Source: a virus. From it: 25,976 nucleotides of DNA. The DNA lies in the IMG/VR virus record IMGVR_UViG_3300030012_001451, positions 1 to 25,976 of that record; one strand, 5' to 3'. The translations under genes were made by a program, and so were the position numbers. The notes beneath the pieces are model-generated. The model was not told the DNA's origin, did not search any database, and worked only from the letters and a program-made list of their open reading frames with translations. How positions within the stretch are numbered: position 1 is the stretch's first letter; every line of letters starts with the position of its first letter. This document shows, in pieces, positions 1,524 to 14,600 of this stretch.

Positions 1524-3071
1524 ATGGAGATTATAGACAACAAGGCTTTGTTACTGAAAGTACGTCAGCCAAACAAAATCACAGAAGTTATACCAAAAAG
1601 TAAATCACTTTCTTCTAACGAAGTATTAGTAAATTGGGGTTTAGAAGAAGCACAAGTTTTAAAAAATCTAAAGATAAAAAATGTCCCTAGTCCGATATGT
1701 AGAAACTACAAGTGGGGCGGTAAATTCAAACCGTTTGAGCATCAAAAAGAAACATCTTCATTCCTAACATTAAATCGTCGTGCGTTTGTTTTTAACGAGC
1801 AAGGCACGGGTAAAACAGCTAGTGTAATATGGGCGGCTGATTATTTAATGAAACTAGGGTTTATTAAAAGAGTTTTAGTGTTATGTCCTCTATCTATCAT
1901 GCAGTCTGCGTGGGGTGGGGACTTATTTAAATTTGCTATTCACAGGTCGGTGGCGATAGCCCATAGCTATTCACGAGAAAAAAGAATAGAAGTTGTAAAC
2001 TCTGATGCTGAATTTGTTATATGTAACTATGATGGATTGCAGATTATACGAGATGCAGTAAACAACAATGAGTTTGACCTTGTAGTGGTAGACGAAGCAA
2101 ACGCATACAAAACGGTTACTACAAAGAGATGGAAGATACTAAACTCAATAATAAAACCGCACACGTGGGTATGGATGCTGACAGGCACACCTGCATCGCA
2201 ATCGCCTACAGATGCGTATGGTCTGGCTAGGATTATAAATCCCGCTAATGTGCCTAAGTATTTCGGTACGTTCAAAGATCTTGTCATGTATAAAGTATCT
2301 CAGTTTATATGGCTACCAAAAGAAAAAGCAGAAGACGTAGTTCACAAAGCACTACAACCTGCAATACGTTTCACAAAAGAAGATTGTTTGGACTTACCAG
2401 ACATGACTTACACAACTAGACAAATTCCTCTTACAAAACAACAGTCTAAATATTATGAACGCATGAGAAAAGATATGATGACTATTGCAGCAGGAGAAGA
2501 AATAACTTCTGTTAATGCCGCTGCAAACTTAAACAAACTCTTACAATTATCTTGCGGTGCAGTATATACGGATAATGGAGATACGGTAGAGTTTGATGTA
2601 TCTAATAGATTACAAGTGTTAACCGAAGTTATAGATGAGGCAAGCCACAAAGTTATTGTATTTGCACCTTATCGCCATGCTATAAATTTAATAGAAGATT
2701 ACTTACTCAAAAATAAGTATACGTGTGATGTAATACACGGTGGAGTTACGGTAAACAACAGAACAGAAATATTCAACAAGTTTCAAACAACAAAAGACCC
2801 TAGAGTTTTAGTCATACAACCGCAAGCCGCATCGCATGGCGTGACACTTCATGCCGCAAATGTGGTGGTGTATTGGTCGGCTGTCATGTCTGTGGAAACG
2901 TATTTACAAGCAAATGCAAGAGTACACAGGGCAGGTCAAAGCAATCCATGCACTGTCGTACACTTACAAGGGTCTCATGCAGAAAAGAAAATGTACAAAA
3001 TGCTTCAGTCGAAAATAGATGTTCACAATAAACTTGTAGATTTATATAAAAATATTTTGGAGGAGGATTGA
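1524..3071 (+). CDS. SNF2-family superfamily 2 helicase
   Basis: A 515-residue two-lobed SF2 ATPase. Motif I is EQGTGKT (92-98), motif Ia lies near VLVLCPLSI (118-125), motif II is DEAN (190-193) and motif III is TGTP (220-223). The second lobe contains KVIVFAPYRHA and motif VI QANARVHRAGQ (462-472), whose R-x-H-R-x-G-Q form is typical of SNF2 rather than DEAD-box enzymes. Such proteins translocate on double-stranded DNA and remodel protein-DNA complexes or forks. Compact SNF2 helicases without extra domains recur in marine phage replication modules, and the setting between nuclease and SSB-like genes suggests fork or recombination work. A strong SD (AAAGGAGAG) precedes ATG 1524. The substrate is not visible from sequence. 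Confidence 0.94.
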   Translation: MEIIDNKALLLKVRQPNKITEVIPKSKSLSSNEVLVNWGLEEAQVLKNLKIKNVPSPICRNYKWGGKFKPFEHQKETSSFLTLNRRAFVFNEQGTGKTASVIWAADYLMKLGFIKRVLVLCPLSIMQSAWGGDLFKFAIHRSVAIAHSYSREKRIEVVNSDAEFVICNYDGLQIIRDAVNNNEFDLVVVDEANAYKTVTTKRWKILNSIIKPHTWVWMLTGTPASQSPTDAYGLARIINPANVPKYFGTFKDLVMYKVSQFIWLPKEKAEDVVHKALQPAIRFTKEDCLDLPDMTYTTRQIPLTKQQSKYYERMRKDMMTIAAGEEITSVNAAANLNKLLQLSCGAVYTDNGDTVEFDVSNRLQVLTEVIDEASHKVIVFAPYRHAINLIEDYLLKNKYTCDVIHGGVTVNNRTEIFNKFQTTKDPRVLVIQPQAASHGVTLHAANVVVYWSAVMSVETYLQANARVHRAGQSNPCTVVHLQGSHAEKKMYKMLQSKIDVHNKLVDLYKNILEED

Positions 3072-5220: not shown

Positions 5221-5454
5221 ATGTCAAAAGGTTACTCTATACAATTTGTTAACGCAGTCAATGAAGCTGACTCAAATTTGTTAGGTGTAAAACTAGGTTT
5301 AATTTGTGTAAAAAACGATATACCTGTAAATGATGTGGCTGAGTATCTTAGTGTTACTCGCATGACGGTCTATAATTGGTTTAAAGGCATTACTACAATT
5401 CAAGACCCACACATTAAACAGGTAGAAAAGTTAGTTGCTAAATTAAAAAATTAG
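5221..5454 (+). CDS. Small helix-turn-helix DNA-binding protein
   Basis: A 77-residue protein whose centre, VNDVAEYLSVTRMTVYNWFKG (about residues 35-55), is a clear helix-turn-helix: a first helix with Ala, a turn, and a recognition helix ending in VYNWF. The protein is almost entirely this domain plus a Lys-rich end, like Cro/XRE or MerR-type small regulators. The start is 3 nt after the SSB-like stop with AGGAG (5211-5215) upstream, so it is in the same transcript. It is the only obvious DNA-binding regulator in the window and therefore a candidate reader of the inverted repeat shared by the two leaders at 1469 and 3067; that link is inference. The stop codon lies inside the G-run of the following hairpin. 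Confidence 0.8.
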   Translation: MSKGYSIQFVNAVNEADSNLLGVKLGLICVKNDIPVNDVAEYLSVTRMTVYNWFKGITTIQDPHIKQVEKLVAKLKN

Positions 5455-5486
5455 GGGGGTAACTCCCCCTGACCTAGGGGATTATT
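5453..5486 (+). promoter_or_regulatory. Alternative hairpins over the primase-helicase ribosome binding site
   Basis: Two stems compete for the same C-run. Hairpin 1 pairs AGGGGG (5453-5458) with CCCCCT (5465-5470), loop 6 nt. Hairpin 2 pairs CCCCT (5466-5470) with AGGGG (5476-5480), loop GACCT. The AGGGG of hairpin 2 is the only plausible SD for ATG 5487, 6 nt away. Hairpin 1 would leave the SD free and hairpin 2 would hide it. There is no T-run after either stem, so this is not a terminator. Ribosomes finishing the HTH gene (stop 5452-5454) would disrupt hairpin 1. Confidence 0.55.
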
Positions 5487-8333
5487 ATGCTTACAAAGAA
5501 AGAGTTTCTTTCTTTTGTATTACCGACTAACGGTTTCTATTGTTCTACAGATATAAAAAGAAAAAACAATAAGGATAGGTTTTATAGAACTGTTGATGAA
5601 TTAGTTAAAGATACAGAAGGAATAGTTGAAAGAAAGAGCGATGCGTATGTCGCTTTAGCGTCATTTACTGACGATAGTAGTAGGTCACAGGAAAACTCTA
5701 AAGAACTTAAATGTTTTTTTATGGATATAGACTGCGGACCTAATAAAGATTACGAAACAAAGTCCGATGGTTTAAAATCTTTCAAGTCTTTTCGTAAAGA
5801 GGCAGGGCTACCTAAACCATCTTTATTAGTGGATTCTGGTAACGGCATACACGTTTATTGGGTTTTAACTGCGCCTATACCAAAGGAGACGTGGAAACCA
5901 ATTGCTGAGAGTTTAAAAGCTTTATGTGCAGATAAAAAGTTTTCTGCTGATGCAAATGTAACAGCCGATAATGCTAGGATTTTGCGTGTGCCAGATACGT
6001 TTAATTTTAAGGGTGATGAACCAAAACCAGTGGTTGTTCGTAATAAAGGTGAGCCTATAGAGTTAGAACAAATAGAAAATGTAGTAAGTCAATATGGGTC
6101 AACATCGTTATTTGACGAATTACGAAAGAAAAATTTTAGAGATTATACAGATCCACTTACTAAAAAATTACAAGGTAATTATGAAACTAGTTTTAAAAAA
6201 ATATTTAAAAAGTCAATTGAAGGCACTGGTTGCGCTCAAATAAAACACGCATATGAAAATCAAGAATCTATAGAAGAACCGTTGTGGAGAGGTGTTTTGT
6301 CTATAGCTAATATTTGCACTGATAGAGAAAAAGGTGTTCGTGTGATGTCTAGTAAACATCTTGAATACGACGAGAGAGAAGCGTTTGATAAAGCATCAAA
6401 AACTAAAGGACCATATAAATGTGATACATTTAAAACTTTGAACCCGGCAGTATGTGAAGGATGTGAACACAGGATAACGTCTCCTGCTGTGTTGGGTAAA
6501 GAGTTTATAAAATCAGAGGAAGAAGATTATGTAGTTGAAGAAAAAGAACAAACATATGAGATCCCTATTCCTCCACGTGGATTTAATAGACCCCCTGCAG
6601 GTGGAGTATATATAGAAATTAAAAAGAGTGAAGAAGAACCGCCTGAAAACGTATGTGTTTATCCTTATGACTTGTACGTAGTAAAGAGAATACATGACCC
6701 AGAGGATGGCGAAAGTATTTTAATTAGGTTACATTTACCTAAAGATGGAGTAAGAGAGTTTATAGTTCCTCTAAGTTCTACGTTAGCTAAAGATAAATTT
6801 TTAGCGGCGGTGTCATTTCATGGTGTAACAGCGTTAGGAAAAAGACAGGATTATCTTATGCAATATGTAAACAAATCAGTAGAAAAACTACAAAATGAAA
6901 AGAAAGCAGAAGTAGCTAGGCGACAGTTTGGGTGGCATGAAGAAGATAGTGTATTTGTATATGGCGATAAAGAAATAAAAGTTGGACAAGCAGAGCCATC
7001 TTACAGTCCCCCAACGATACCCACACTGATACTAACACCCATGTTTCATGAAAAAGGAGACTTTCACACATGGAAAGACATTATAAATGCTTATGCACAC
7101 GAAGATAGAATCGGTAAAGCTTTTGCATTTTTTCTAGGTTTTGGTGGTCCTCTCATGAAGTTTGTGGGAGACGGTATGTTAGATGGATTGTTATATAACT
7201 TAATATCTCCGGGAAGTGGAGCAGGTAAATCTTCAGTATTACATTTGCTAAATAGTATTTACGGAAACCCAAAAGCATTAGTTTTGAAGTGGGATGATAC
7301 ACACAATTCTAGGATGCAAAGACTAGGTTCTATGCAAAGTCTAACACCGACTATTGATGAAATAACAAACATGGAACCAAAGATGATGAGCAATCTTATC
7401 TACGACATTACATCAGGTCGTGGTAAAAACAGAATGGATGCTAAAGCAAATAGAGAAAGATTAAACAAAACAACGTGGTCTATTCCTGTGGTATCTACTT
7501 CCAATACCAGAATACGAGACAAACTGCTATCTATTAAAGCTTTTCCCGACGCCGAATTGATGCGTATACTGGAAGATAAGTTGCCAGTAGATAAATTTAG
7601 TGACCCAACATGGTCAAAAGCTCATTTTGGCAGAATAAGTAAGCACTACGGACACGCAATAAAACCATACATATACCATTGTGTGAACAATCTACCAGAT
7701 GTGATTGCTAAGTTAAACGAAGTAAATCAGATGATGGACAGAGCCGCTAATATAAAAAATACAGAACGGTTTTGGTCGGCAGGTGCGGCAGTCGCACTGA
7801 CAGGTGGAATGATAGCAAAAGACTTAGGACTACATGATATACCTATAAAACCTGTTCTTGATTACTGCGTTAACTTAATCAACCATAGCAGAAAGAGTAA
7901 CAAAGATTCTTTAACAGAATATGGAGAGATACTAGGGGCGTTCCTAAACTCGCACCCATTGGGTATTACAGTGGTCAATGTTAGCAAAGATAAGGTAACA
8001 GGGTTAGAGATGGGCGCAATAAAAGAACCCAGAACTTCTTGTGTGGCTAGATTAGAGAAAGATGAGAACAGATTATATGTATCTAAAAGTATGTATCAGC
8101 AGTATTGTAGTAGAAATTACGTGAGTTTTGAGGACTCTTTACTAGATTATAAGAAAAGTGGGTCTTACATAGGGATTAAAAAGAAAAGATTACTGGCAGG
8201 TACATCATTGTCTAGTGCATCAAATAGTGTTAGATGTCTTGAATTTAATACTAAGAAACTAGATAGTTTTGATATAGAAGGATTTACAAATGATACGGAT
8301 AATGGGTCTTCCAGTGAGGATATCTTGGAATGA
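5487..8333 (+). CDS. Primase-helicase fusion (AEP-like primase, DUF927-like region, P-loop helicase)
   Basis: A 948-residue replication protein. The N-terminal part carries the archaeo-eukaryotic-type primase motifs: FFMDIDC with Asp80 and Asp82, SGNGIHVYW with His122, and NARILRVPDTFNF near residues 163-175. A Cys312-x10-Cys323-x2-Cys326-x-His328 cluster probably binds zinc. After an acidic linker, residues around 365-500 resemble DUF927, and the C-terminal ATPase has Walker A GSGAGKS (576-582), Walker B TIDE (Asp624, Glu625) and a sensor-like VVSTSN. It should unwind DNA and make primers at the fork, replacing a T7 gp4-type protein. The C-terminal tail of about 150 residues is of unknown role. 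Translation may be gated by the hairpins just upstream. The family is clear; the helicase subclass (SF3-like or DUF927) is less so. Confidence 0.88.
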   Translation: MLTKKEFLSFVLPTNGFYCSTDIKRKNNKDRFYRTVDELVKDTEGIVERKSDAYVALASFTDDSSRSQENSKELKCFFMDIDCGPNKDYETKSDGLKSFKSFRKEAGLPKPSLLVDSGNGIHVYWVLTAPIPKETWKPIAESLKALCADKKFSADANVTADNARILRVPDTFNFKGDEPKPVVVRNKGEPIELEQIENVVSQYGSTSLFDELRKKNFRDYTDPLTKKLQGNYETSFKKIFKKSIEGTGCAQIKHAYENQESIEEPLWRGVLSIANICTDREKGVRVMSSKHLEYDEREAFDKASKTKGPYKCDTFKTLNPAVCEGCEHRITSPAVLGKEFIKSEEEDYVVEEKEQTYEIPIPPRGFNRPPAGGVYIEIKKSEEEPPENVCVYPYDLYVVKRIHDPEDGESILIRLHLPKDGVREFIVPLSSTLAKDKFLAAVSFHGVTALGKRQDYLMQYVNKSVEKLQNEKKAEVARRQFGWHEEDSVFVYGDKEIKVGQAEPSYSPPTIPTLILTPMFHEKGDFHTWKDIINAYAHEDRIGKAFAFFLGFGGPLMKFVGDGMLDGLLYNLISPGSGAGKSSVLHLLNSIYGNPKALVLKWDDTHNSRMQRLGSMQSLTPTIDEITNMEPKMMSNLIYDITSGRGKNRMDAKANRERLNKTTWSIPVVSTSNTRIRDKLLSIKAFPDAELMRILEDKLPVDKFSDPTWSKAHFGRISKHYGHAIKPYIYHCVNNLPDVIAKLNEVNQMMDRAANIKNTERFWSAGAAVALTGGMIAKDLGLHDIPIKPVLDYCVNLINHSRKSNKDSLTEYGEILGAFLNSHPLGITVVNVSKDKVTGLEMGAIKEPRTSCVARLEKDENRLYVSKSMYQQYCSRNYVSFEDSLLDYKKSGSYIGIKKKRLLAGTSLSSASNSVRCLEFNTKKLDSFDIEGFTNDTDNGSSSEDILE

Positions 8334-8575: not shown

Positions 8576-8614
8576 CCCCCGGTAGAGAGCGGACACTTTA
8601 CTGGGGGTTTTTTT
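8576..8614 (+). terminator. Rho-independent terminator of the replication arm
   Basis: CCCCCGGTA (8576-8584) pairs with TACTGGGGG (8599-8607) as a 9-bp stem with one G-T pair and a 14-nt loop, followed by seven T (8608-8614). It ends the + strand transcripts. On the - strand the same stem lacks a following T-run, so the late operon may stop by another route. The T-run runs into the stop codon of the giant virion gene. Confidence 0.85.
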
Positions 8615-11600: not shown

Positions 11601-14600
11601 AGCTTCTTCTTTTGTTAACTTTTCCTCTTTCATTAAATTGTTAGCTGCCATATTAATTTGAGGATCAGTCTTATACAATTTATCCATAGTTGCTTTATAA
11701 TCAGCACCTAAAATGGATCTAAGGCCAAAGTGTCCTATAGACTCATGTAAAACTGTTTTTAGTACATCTTTTTTTGAAGTGACTGTAGCTGCATTTATGT
11801 ATATTTGATCGGTTTTTCCATCATAAATCCCTTTTACAGACATAGACTTGTCACGAAGCCTATTTAACTCGGCTTTGTCTTTGACCATTTTATAGTCTTT
11901 TTCTATACGTTTTATATTTTCTTGTAGATCTATAGCGCCCAATCCAGTTTCAGTAACTTCTATCTCACCCCGTCTAATCTTAAAGTAATTCTGCCTCATT
12001 AATTGGTAGTCTTCTAATACTTCTTCAGGAATACTTCTTTGAAAATTTTTAGCGTCACTATAAAGTGAACGAACTTTTGCTGATACACCTAATTTTTTCT
12101 CTAATTCAGCAATACCATTTACGACCACTATGTCTGGTGCGTTTTTCCAATTTTTTACTATTTCATTTACGTATTTCTGTGTTTCAGCAACATTATCTTT
12201 AGGTGAAATAACTGTAACTTCAGATACTTTTTTAAAAGAAAGATCACGTGGCTCTACTTTTGCAGCTTCTGTAAGAGGACTTATAGTTTTATCTTTAAAA
12301 TCTTTTGCTTTTTCTATTTCTTTTGCAGCTTTTTCTGGGACTAATAGTTTTACGGTTTCTTCTAACTCCTTTAATTTTTTTGTATGAGCATCTTTGTCTT
12401 CTCCAAGTTCTTTTATAGCTGCTTGAGAAGTGCCTTTTTTTAATGCGCCGTCTATGTCTTCTTGTATTTTAAGAAGTTCTTCTTCTCTATCTCTAATATC
12501 TGTTAAAGTATCACTTACTAGTTTATCTTTTAGTTCTTTTCTTGTCTCATCGACATATCTTTGTTGAGCTTTATTTAACTTTTTATATGTTGTTTCTGCT
12601 TTTTTAAGAGCATCAATTCGTCTTTTAAATCCTGTTTTATCTTTAGGTGGTAGTAGTTTTTGTTCTACCCGTAATAGTTCAAGCGCAAATAAATCTCCAG
12701 CTATAACTTTTAATTTTCTTCTAGCCTCTCCTATATCACCAAAACCCTCTTTTTCTGTAGCTGATTTTATATATTTTGTAATATATTCTCTTTCTGCTTT
12801 TCTTGCTTCCTCACTTTGTTGTTTAGTTTTATATTTAGCTTCAATAGATCTCACTCCTTTTATTGGATCTAAATACTTTTCTAAACTAGGATTAATTTCG
12901 GCTATAGTCCCAACATTTTTCCTAGCTTTCTCCATTGCTGAAGTTTCTTTTTGAAGCACTTTTGTAGGTTTTTTACCTGTTTCTCTTTTATACTCTTGGG
13001 TAATAAATGTTGTAGGTACATAATCTATTTGCTTTTGTATTTTTTCTTTTTCAATAGCTACTAAAGATAGCTGTGTTTCTATTTCCTTTTTTTGGTTATC
13101 AGTTGTGGCTGTATCTAAATTTCTTCTAAGTCCCTCTTCTTTAGCAATAACTGCACTCAAATCTCTCCTAAGATTTTCTCTATTTTCCATATACTTGTTG
13201 CCGAGATCTTGCAGCGTAACAGATTTACGAACTTTTTCTTTTTTGTTTCTTTGAGCGGCACGATCAAGAACTTCAGCTTCAGGGGTAGTGGTTTCAGGAG
13301 CAGTTTCAGGAGCAGTTTCAGGAGCAGTTTCAGGAGCAGTTTCAAGGGTAGTTTCAGGGGTAGTTTCAGGGGTAGTTTCAGGGGTAGTAGTTTCAGGTTT
13401 TTTACGATATTTTTCTATTTTTGGTAAATACTTAGCAATATTATTTGGATCTGAAACTGACGTAGTTTTCGTTGCGTGGTCGTTTAAAGCATCGTAAAAA
13501 GCAGGGTTAGCTATAGATTTATTTTCTAGGTCTGGGTTTTTATCTAAAAATAATTTTGGTTTTGATATACCTATTTGTTTTAAGTATTCTTTAGTTACTT
13601 TAGTTGATTTATTAACTTTTATTGGCTCTACTTTTTTCTTCTTATCTGCCGTCTTTTTTCCTAATTTCTTTACTAATTCTGGAGCAGTAGTAGGATCAAG
13701 ATTACCTTTTTCGTCAAACAAATCTATTTGATCTTCTTGAGGTAGTGAGGTAATAGTTTTTTGCTCACCTGTTTCTGGGTCTACAGGCTCTATTGGATCG
13801 AGTGTTGTCTTAACAGGTGCAACACCTTTCTTTTGCTCTTCTTTAGGTAGCGTTGCTTTTTTACTTTTTACTTTGTTTTTTAAATTTTTTTCATACTCAT
13901 TTAGATTATCTAACTGTCTTTGTATAGATATTTTATCGTCTCTAGTACTAGCACCTCGTAGGTTTTCTAATAGTTCAGCCTTTTGTCTTTTAAATCTTGC
14001 TAAATCTATCTCAGCTTGTCTTATATAATCTCTAGCTTCTTCTCTACGAGACTCTTTTGTTACTTCATCTATATAATCTATTTGTTTCTGTATTTTTTCT
14101 TTCTCTTCTTCAGTTGTAGCTCTATCTAACTCTGCTCTTAGCCTTTCTTTTTCAGCAAATATTTTAGATCTATCTGCTCTAGCTTCTACCTTACCCTCTT
14201 CTTTTTCTAACTCTGTTGCTTCTGGTAAACCTTCTATATCAGGTTGTGCGGCGGTAGGGATTGGTTGTCCTATATCATCTGGATCTCTTTCCGCTCTTTC
14301 TTGTTTTGGTTCTTTTGGTTCTTTTGGTTCTTTTGGTTTTTTGTCAAATTGTTTTCTGCCCAAAGCTAGATCAAATATACCCTGTGCTAACGCACCAACC
14401 GCACCACCGTATGCGGCTTCTTCTCCTATACCATCAATTAATTCTTGTTCGGGTTTATATACACCTTTTGCGATTGCATTTTGTGCAAACCCTGCGGCAG
14501 CTTCCGTAGCTGCTTCCTCTCCACCTGTCTTTGCGGCTCTTTTTACAAAATCTGTACCGCTTTTAATGACATCATCACCTACTCTTTTTAGTAATCTACT

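Follow-up and report, generated by a model that had tools for sequence, protein, structure and literature searches.

A putative insulating hairpin at a viral HTH/primase-helicase junction whose distant relatives carry int-alpA leaders

The junction between a helix-turn-helix (HTH) gene and a primase-helicase gene, within a stretch of 25,976 nt of viral DNA analysed as a whole (in the following, the window), is best explained by an intercistronic hairpin over the HTH stop codon, i.e., by an element of a kind common in phage operons that probably insulates the two genes, in a clade that has lost an int-alpA leader. We assign this reading a probability of about 0.5. For the free mRNA, folding predicts that a stable stem holds the C-run and that the downstream AGGGG, the Shine-Dalgarno (SD) sequence of the primase-helicase gene, stays largely available. 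With structure directly 3' of the HTH stop, initiation at the primase-helicase gene would most likely be insulated from ribosomes that have just finished the HTH gene; according to a review, translational coupling is negatively correlated with structure immediately 3' of the upstream stop codon (PMC12548453). A second hairpin that hides the SD is possible, as the SD by chance repeats the first-arm sequence, and would be short-lived, being restricted to the time during which the first arm is under a ribosome. Insulation by the first hairpin is suggested by general knowledge and because the relatives L046/L048 keep a hairpin at the equivalent place with a different SD. Phylogeny and model search further show that the junction ancestrally had an int-alpA-type leader, which was lost in this clade. 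The hairpin itself is ordinary; its neighbourhood is the more useful.

The junction and its two hairpins

Upstream of the junction, an open reading frame on the + strand (5221-5454) encodes the 77-aa HTH protein, which has weak HTH_23/HTH_3 Pfam and phrog_8 matches (the Pfam ones under the curated cut-offs). Its identity among close relatives is 94-100%, and annotated phages gave no match. Downstream, the open reading frame from ATG 5487 (5487-8333, + strand) encodes the 948-aa primase-helicase, with DUF927 and PHROG DNA primase/helicase matches. In annotated phages, the primase has distant relatives only (best: Pseudomonas phage Rollin, 27%), and those found in a scan of bacterial genomes are likewise all distant. 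The junction sequence (5440-5489) reads ...AAATTAAAAAATTAGGGGGGTAACTCCCCCTGACCTAGGGGATTATTATG.

The initial annotation had placed two mutually exclusive folds here, one of them holding the SD. Its arm coordinates are exact (AGGGGGG 5453-5459, CCCCCT 5465-5470, AGGGG 5476-5480, ATG 5487), the HTH stop TAG (5452-5454, + strand) does lie within the 5' arm of the first stem, and both folds, which exclude each other, exist on paper, i.e., as folding predictions. The first hairpin consists of the 5' arm UUAGGGGGG (5451-5459, + strand) and the 3' arm UCCCCCUGA (5464-5472, + strand). Its stem extends to U5451-A5472, U5452-G5471 and G5459-U5464 with a predicted energy of -13.9 kcal/mol, and can slide by one since the G-run is six long (5454-5459). 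Within the 3' arm, CCCCU (5466-5470) doubles as the 5' arm of the alternative hairpin, in which C5466-U5470 pairs with A5476-G5480 (predicted -8.6 kcal/mol alone). The 3' arm of this second stem (5476-5480, + strand) is the SD-like AGGGG of the primase-helicase gene. Its duplex with the anti-SD reaches -6.4 kcal/mol through one G-U, compared to up to -8.7 for other genes in the block, i.e., it is a usable SD that is weaker than the AGGAG-type SDs of the neighbouring genes. In the free RNA, the first stem is predicted to be populated to ~98% and the second to ~2%, which agrees with the earlier claim that the first fold frees the SD, as this fold leaves it mostly open.

The pattern GGGGG-N3-8-CCCCC has a single occurrence in the window, namely the first stem, while dinucleotide shuffles yield 0.01 per window. 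A Markov model gives per-window expectations of 0.18 for a GC-only 5-bp stem and of 0.01 for an X / rcX / X triple, both being post-hoc counts. With regard to fold energy, the junction is unexceptional for its composition when compared to shuffles (z of -0.04 to -1.7), and the energy of neither stem is remarkable for a G-/C-rich sequence.

Conservation of the stems among relatives

The primase is encoded by twelve viral contigs at 39-99% identity. Relatives with at least 90% primase identity together with L017 (85% over its fragment) define the close clade, which provides five distinct junctions, and the first stem is present in all five. In L001/L010, six G face six C, i.e., the extra C is matched, where the window has six G against five C plus U. 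L003/L017 read UAGGGGG/CCCCCUA, i.e., U-G became U-A. Six of the nine pairs of the first stem are invariant, two changed one-sidedly and one is broken in two sequences. The compensatory changes that the initial annotation had suggested looking for at homologous HTH-primase junctions are thus found as a matched length change of the first stem and not as a two-sided substitution. The second stem and AGGGG are invariant across the close clade, such that for this stem the comparison speaks neither for nor against and yields no covariation evidence.

Divergence at fourfold sites of the primase among the five variants is 0.17-0.32. Taking these sites as the neutral standard, we estimate for the few variants available that the ten stem positions belonging neither to the stop codon nor to the SD should have changed about 4 times, and all are unchanged. 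Constraint on the first stem is therefore probable in the close clade. For the SD arm, its function as an SD would by itself lead to conservation.

The nearest sister, L008/L009 (70% primase identity), has the same gene order, and its junction shows neither stem, no hairpin and no clear SD. Either the first hairpin is dispensable, or its loss is compensated in L008/L009, which presumably still make primase. L046/L048 (58-60% primase identity) carry a stop-codon hairpin, TAAGGGGG-TTTTATA-CCCCCTTATTTT, at the equivalent junction, and their SD, GAAAGGA, lacks the complementarity to the C-run that AGGGG has. The second stem is absent from L008, L046 and L048. Given the missing stems in L008/L009 and the GAAAGGA SD in L046/L048, the SD-hiding arm is limited to one shallow clade.

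These comparisons also bear on the question whether the junction is regulatory at all. Hairpin and SD complementarity could be neutral, with the hairpin at most stabilising the 3' end of the HTH mRNA; its absence in L008/L009 and a fold energy that is unexceptional for the composition would fit. This is unlikely given the matched stem extension and the unchanged stem positions within the close clade.

Switch and terminator readings of the junction

Another claim of the initial annotation was that ribosome passage over the HTH gene would favour the SD-hiding fold. We modelled a ribosome on the HTH stop by blocking bases up to 12 nt past the first stop base, a block that corresponds approximately to a terminating ribosome when judged by typical toeprint distances. 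Folding then predicts for the window that the SD-opening cost rises from 1.15 to 8.8 kcal/mol as the second stem takes over, and for all five close variants a rise from 0.8-2.6 to 8.2-9.1 kcal/mol. The second stem reaches nearly 100% only when the 5' arm is blocked and the footprint ends near stop+12. With a footprint longer by 3 nt (stop+15), masking is down to ~2.5-3.0 kcal/mol in three of the five variants (window, L003, L017). That is, the claim holds in all variants for a cover of ~12 nt and is weakened in three of them for the longer one. In these models, the switch appears physically possible and depends on the exact footprint, and the SD would be hidden only for as long as the HTH stop is occupied by a ribosome. 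We also considered L003/L017 as switch-breakers via pairing of the loop CCC with the GGG of the SD, an idea weakened by an opening cost of just ~2.6 kcal/mol.

As regulation, such a switch would amount to negative translational coupling: the first stem would be melted by a ribosome at the HTH stop, CCCCU would then be free to capture the SD, and the more the HTH gene is translated, the less often the primase-helicase would be initiated. Besides the predicted rise in opening cost at stop+12, this would be consistent with both stems being kept across variants that differ by 17-32% at fourfold sites, and with the int-alpA leaders of relatives, in which the primase SD likewise takes part in mutually exclusive pairings. 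On the other hand, the second stem shows no covariation, the third arm is missing in L046/L048 and both stems are missing in L008/L009, and the masking at stop+15 is small. Furthermore, the characterised couplings covered by the review (PMC12548453) promote rather than repress the downstream gene. The proposal shares with translational coupling by RNA unfolding that the upstream ribosome alters the structure around the downstream SD, but the known cases open the downstream site (PMC12548453) while the window's case would close it.

Exact-pattern scans for AGGGGG..CCCCCT followed by an SD and an ATG add to this. The AGGGG version was found in 9 unrelated viral contigs and the non-complementary AGGAG version in at least 120 viral stretches (L120-L239), with 98 distinct sequences among the matches listed. 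Before long ORFs, the ratio of AGGGG to AGGAG is 16:206 among the matches listed for the same loci (~16:93 without the selected sites) and 41:170 for other loci. The AGGAG control hence does not support a special selection of AGGGG to match the hairpin: AGGGG is not enriched beside such hairpins, therefore the complementarity between SD and hairpin looks incidental. This lack of enrichment at comparable sites also counts against negative coupling, which we consider rather unlikely. The translational switch tying primase-helicase output to HTH translation that had been proposed initially is unsupported as a mechanism that is conserved, given the absent covariation of the second stem and an SD-hiding arm that is confined to one shallow clade.

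Judged from these pattern matches, the hairpin-SD-start layout as such is common in phages. The AGGGGG..CCCCCT hairpins of L120-L239 stop a few nucleotides short of an AGGAG SD with its ATG, many have CUUCGG loops, and they appear as a widespread intercistronic element. With the GC-rich intercistronic hairpins of phages (stop, hairpin, SD, start) the window shares order and spacing. It differs in that the stop codon is inside the stem, in that no U-tract directly follows the stem on the + strand, and in that the SD repeats the 5' arm.

Two terminator-type roles were also considered. The junction could act on the - strand as an intrinsic terminator of antisense transcripts (GGGGG-AGTTA-CCCCC, then CTAATTTTTT), or it could be a weak + strand attenuator with the first hairpin as antiterminator and the second, together with the AUUAUUAU after it, as terminator. 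In a pattern scan, 5470-5453 (-) and 5466-5480 (+) come out as terminator-like, the late genes of the - strand converge on this block, and the + strand hairpin of L046/L048 is followed by UUAUUUU. Yet the upstream A-run is part of the HTH coding sequence (Lys/Asn codons) and is interrupted in L046/L048, and AUUAUUAU is poor as a U-tract. On the + strand, neither stem has the layout of an intrinsic terminator, i.e., the first is followed by UGACC and the second only by AUUAUUAU, though the simple scan lists the latter. Moreover, the gap between the two converging blocks holds a much stronger terminator-like hairpin (8576-8607). A terminator-type role of the window's junction is thus decidedly unlikely. 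The hairpin at 8576-8607 has 12 pairs followed by TTTTTTT and separates the replication (+) from the structural (-) block. In L046/L048, where the primase starts at 3001, the stop-codon hairpin and the UUAUUUU after it are found ~10-45 bases further upstream; instead of insulating, this hairpin may act as a weak terminator or attenuator.

int-alpA leaders at the equivalent junction

The preferred reading, i.e., an insulating hairpin in a clade without the leader, also draws on more distant relatives (45-52% primase identity), in which the intergenic region is longer (~85-100 nt) and strongly conserved. Rfam reports int-alpA (RF02996) over the gathering score in L074, L109, L091 and L096. As a leader of ~90 nt, it is located immediately ahead of the primase-helicase start and contains a pseudoknot that overlaps the SD. 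In most of the phage family (L047-L119), int-alpA is situated between the HTH gene and the primase-helicase gene, e.g., L074:2921-3003, L096:2919-3003 and L109:2912-3003.

A model of the relatives' leader (R1) matches 75 of the 83 related loci searched, 30 of which were used to build it and match by construction. No junction match to R1 was obtained for the window, L008, L046, L048, L011 or phage Rollin. With regard to a remnant of int-alpA in the window, RF02996 has no match at E<=10, and R1 with filters off has none at the junction (the best window score, 9.8 bits, is elsewhere). The initial statement that no known riboswitch family is recognised is right for the window, as none of its 25,976 bases has a match at Rfam gathering scores; at the junction, Rfam gives only sub-threshold noise, e.g., cow-rumen-4. 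In the primase tree, the window's clade is nested inside the int-alpA carriers with 100/100 support, thus int-alpA was most simply lost once in the stem of this clade.

The leader structure was assessed in an alignment of 30 sequences (A2), which comprises P1, P2, P3 and a pseudoknot between P3 loop and SD, altogether 21 pairs that are 95.4% paired. Two-sided changes are observed in 14 of the 21 pairs, compared to 7.3 for shuffles and 2-4 for slid controls. The P3-loop/SD helix is mostly invariant (two-sided changes in one of six pairs, another varying between U-A and U-G), therefore its direct support is modest. The P3 loop of the phage leaders is complementary to two copies of GACGGC, i.e., a decoy just after P1 and a copy that overlaps SD and start (GGACGGCT-ATG). 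Pairing within the same sequence is stronger than cross-pairing for the decoy (-9.4 vs. -8.4) as well as for the SD/start copy (-11.2 vs. -10.4), reached in 0 of 200 reshuffles, which do not control for relatedness.

int-alpA occupies the equivalent HTH/primase-helicase junction and, like the switch proposed for the window, involves mutually exclusive pairing of the SD region (P3 loop with decoy or SD/start copy); unlike int-alpA, the 32-nt spacer of the window is too short for a three-stem structure. That the three-arm element is a minimal int-alpA replacement, i.e., that a ~90-nt pseudoknotted RNA became a 30-nt switch repressing when HTH is translated and control by SD pairing was kept, is very unlikely.

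In bacteria, int-alpA scores above the cut-off in 35 of 274 genomes of one bacterial class. In the bacterial copies (L265, L273-L301), a pseudoknot of P3 loop and AAGGG-like tail covaries; 20 parsed copies show the pairs CCUUC:GAAGG, CCCUU:AAGGG, CUUCCU:AGGAAG and CCCUA:UAGGG, and own pairing is -9.37 vs. -7.38 for cross-pairing (sd 0.39, 0/500). Complementarity of the loop to the start is unconfirmed in the same 20 copies (own -4.51 vs. cross -4.53), therefore we claim it for the phage leaders only. Rfam types int-alpA as an sRNA gene, and the tail is single-stranded in the consensus structure printed by cmscan, i.e., the covarying pseudoknot of P3 loop and downstream tail is absent from the structure as printed. 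The neighbourhood links this RNA to a phage replication gene at its start codon, which makes a translational role in cis directly testable, and the window's clade, L046/L048 and L008 provide natural int-alpA-minus junctions.

Elsewhere in the window, positions 13209-13400 hold a repetitive TTPETAPE-type tract within a 2180-aa protein encoded on the - strand.
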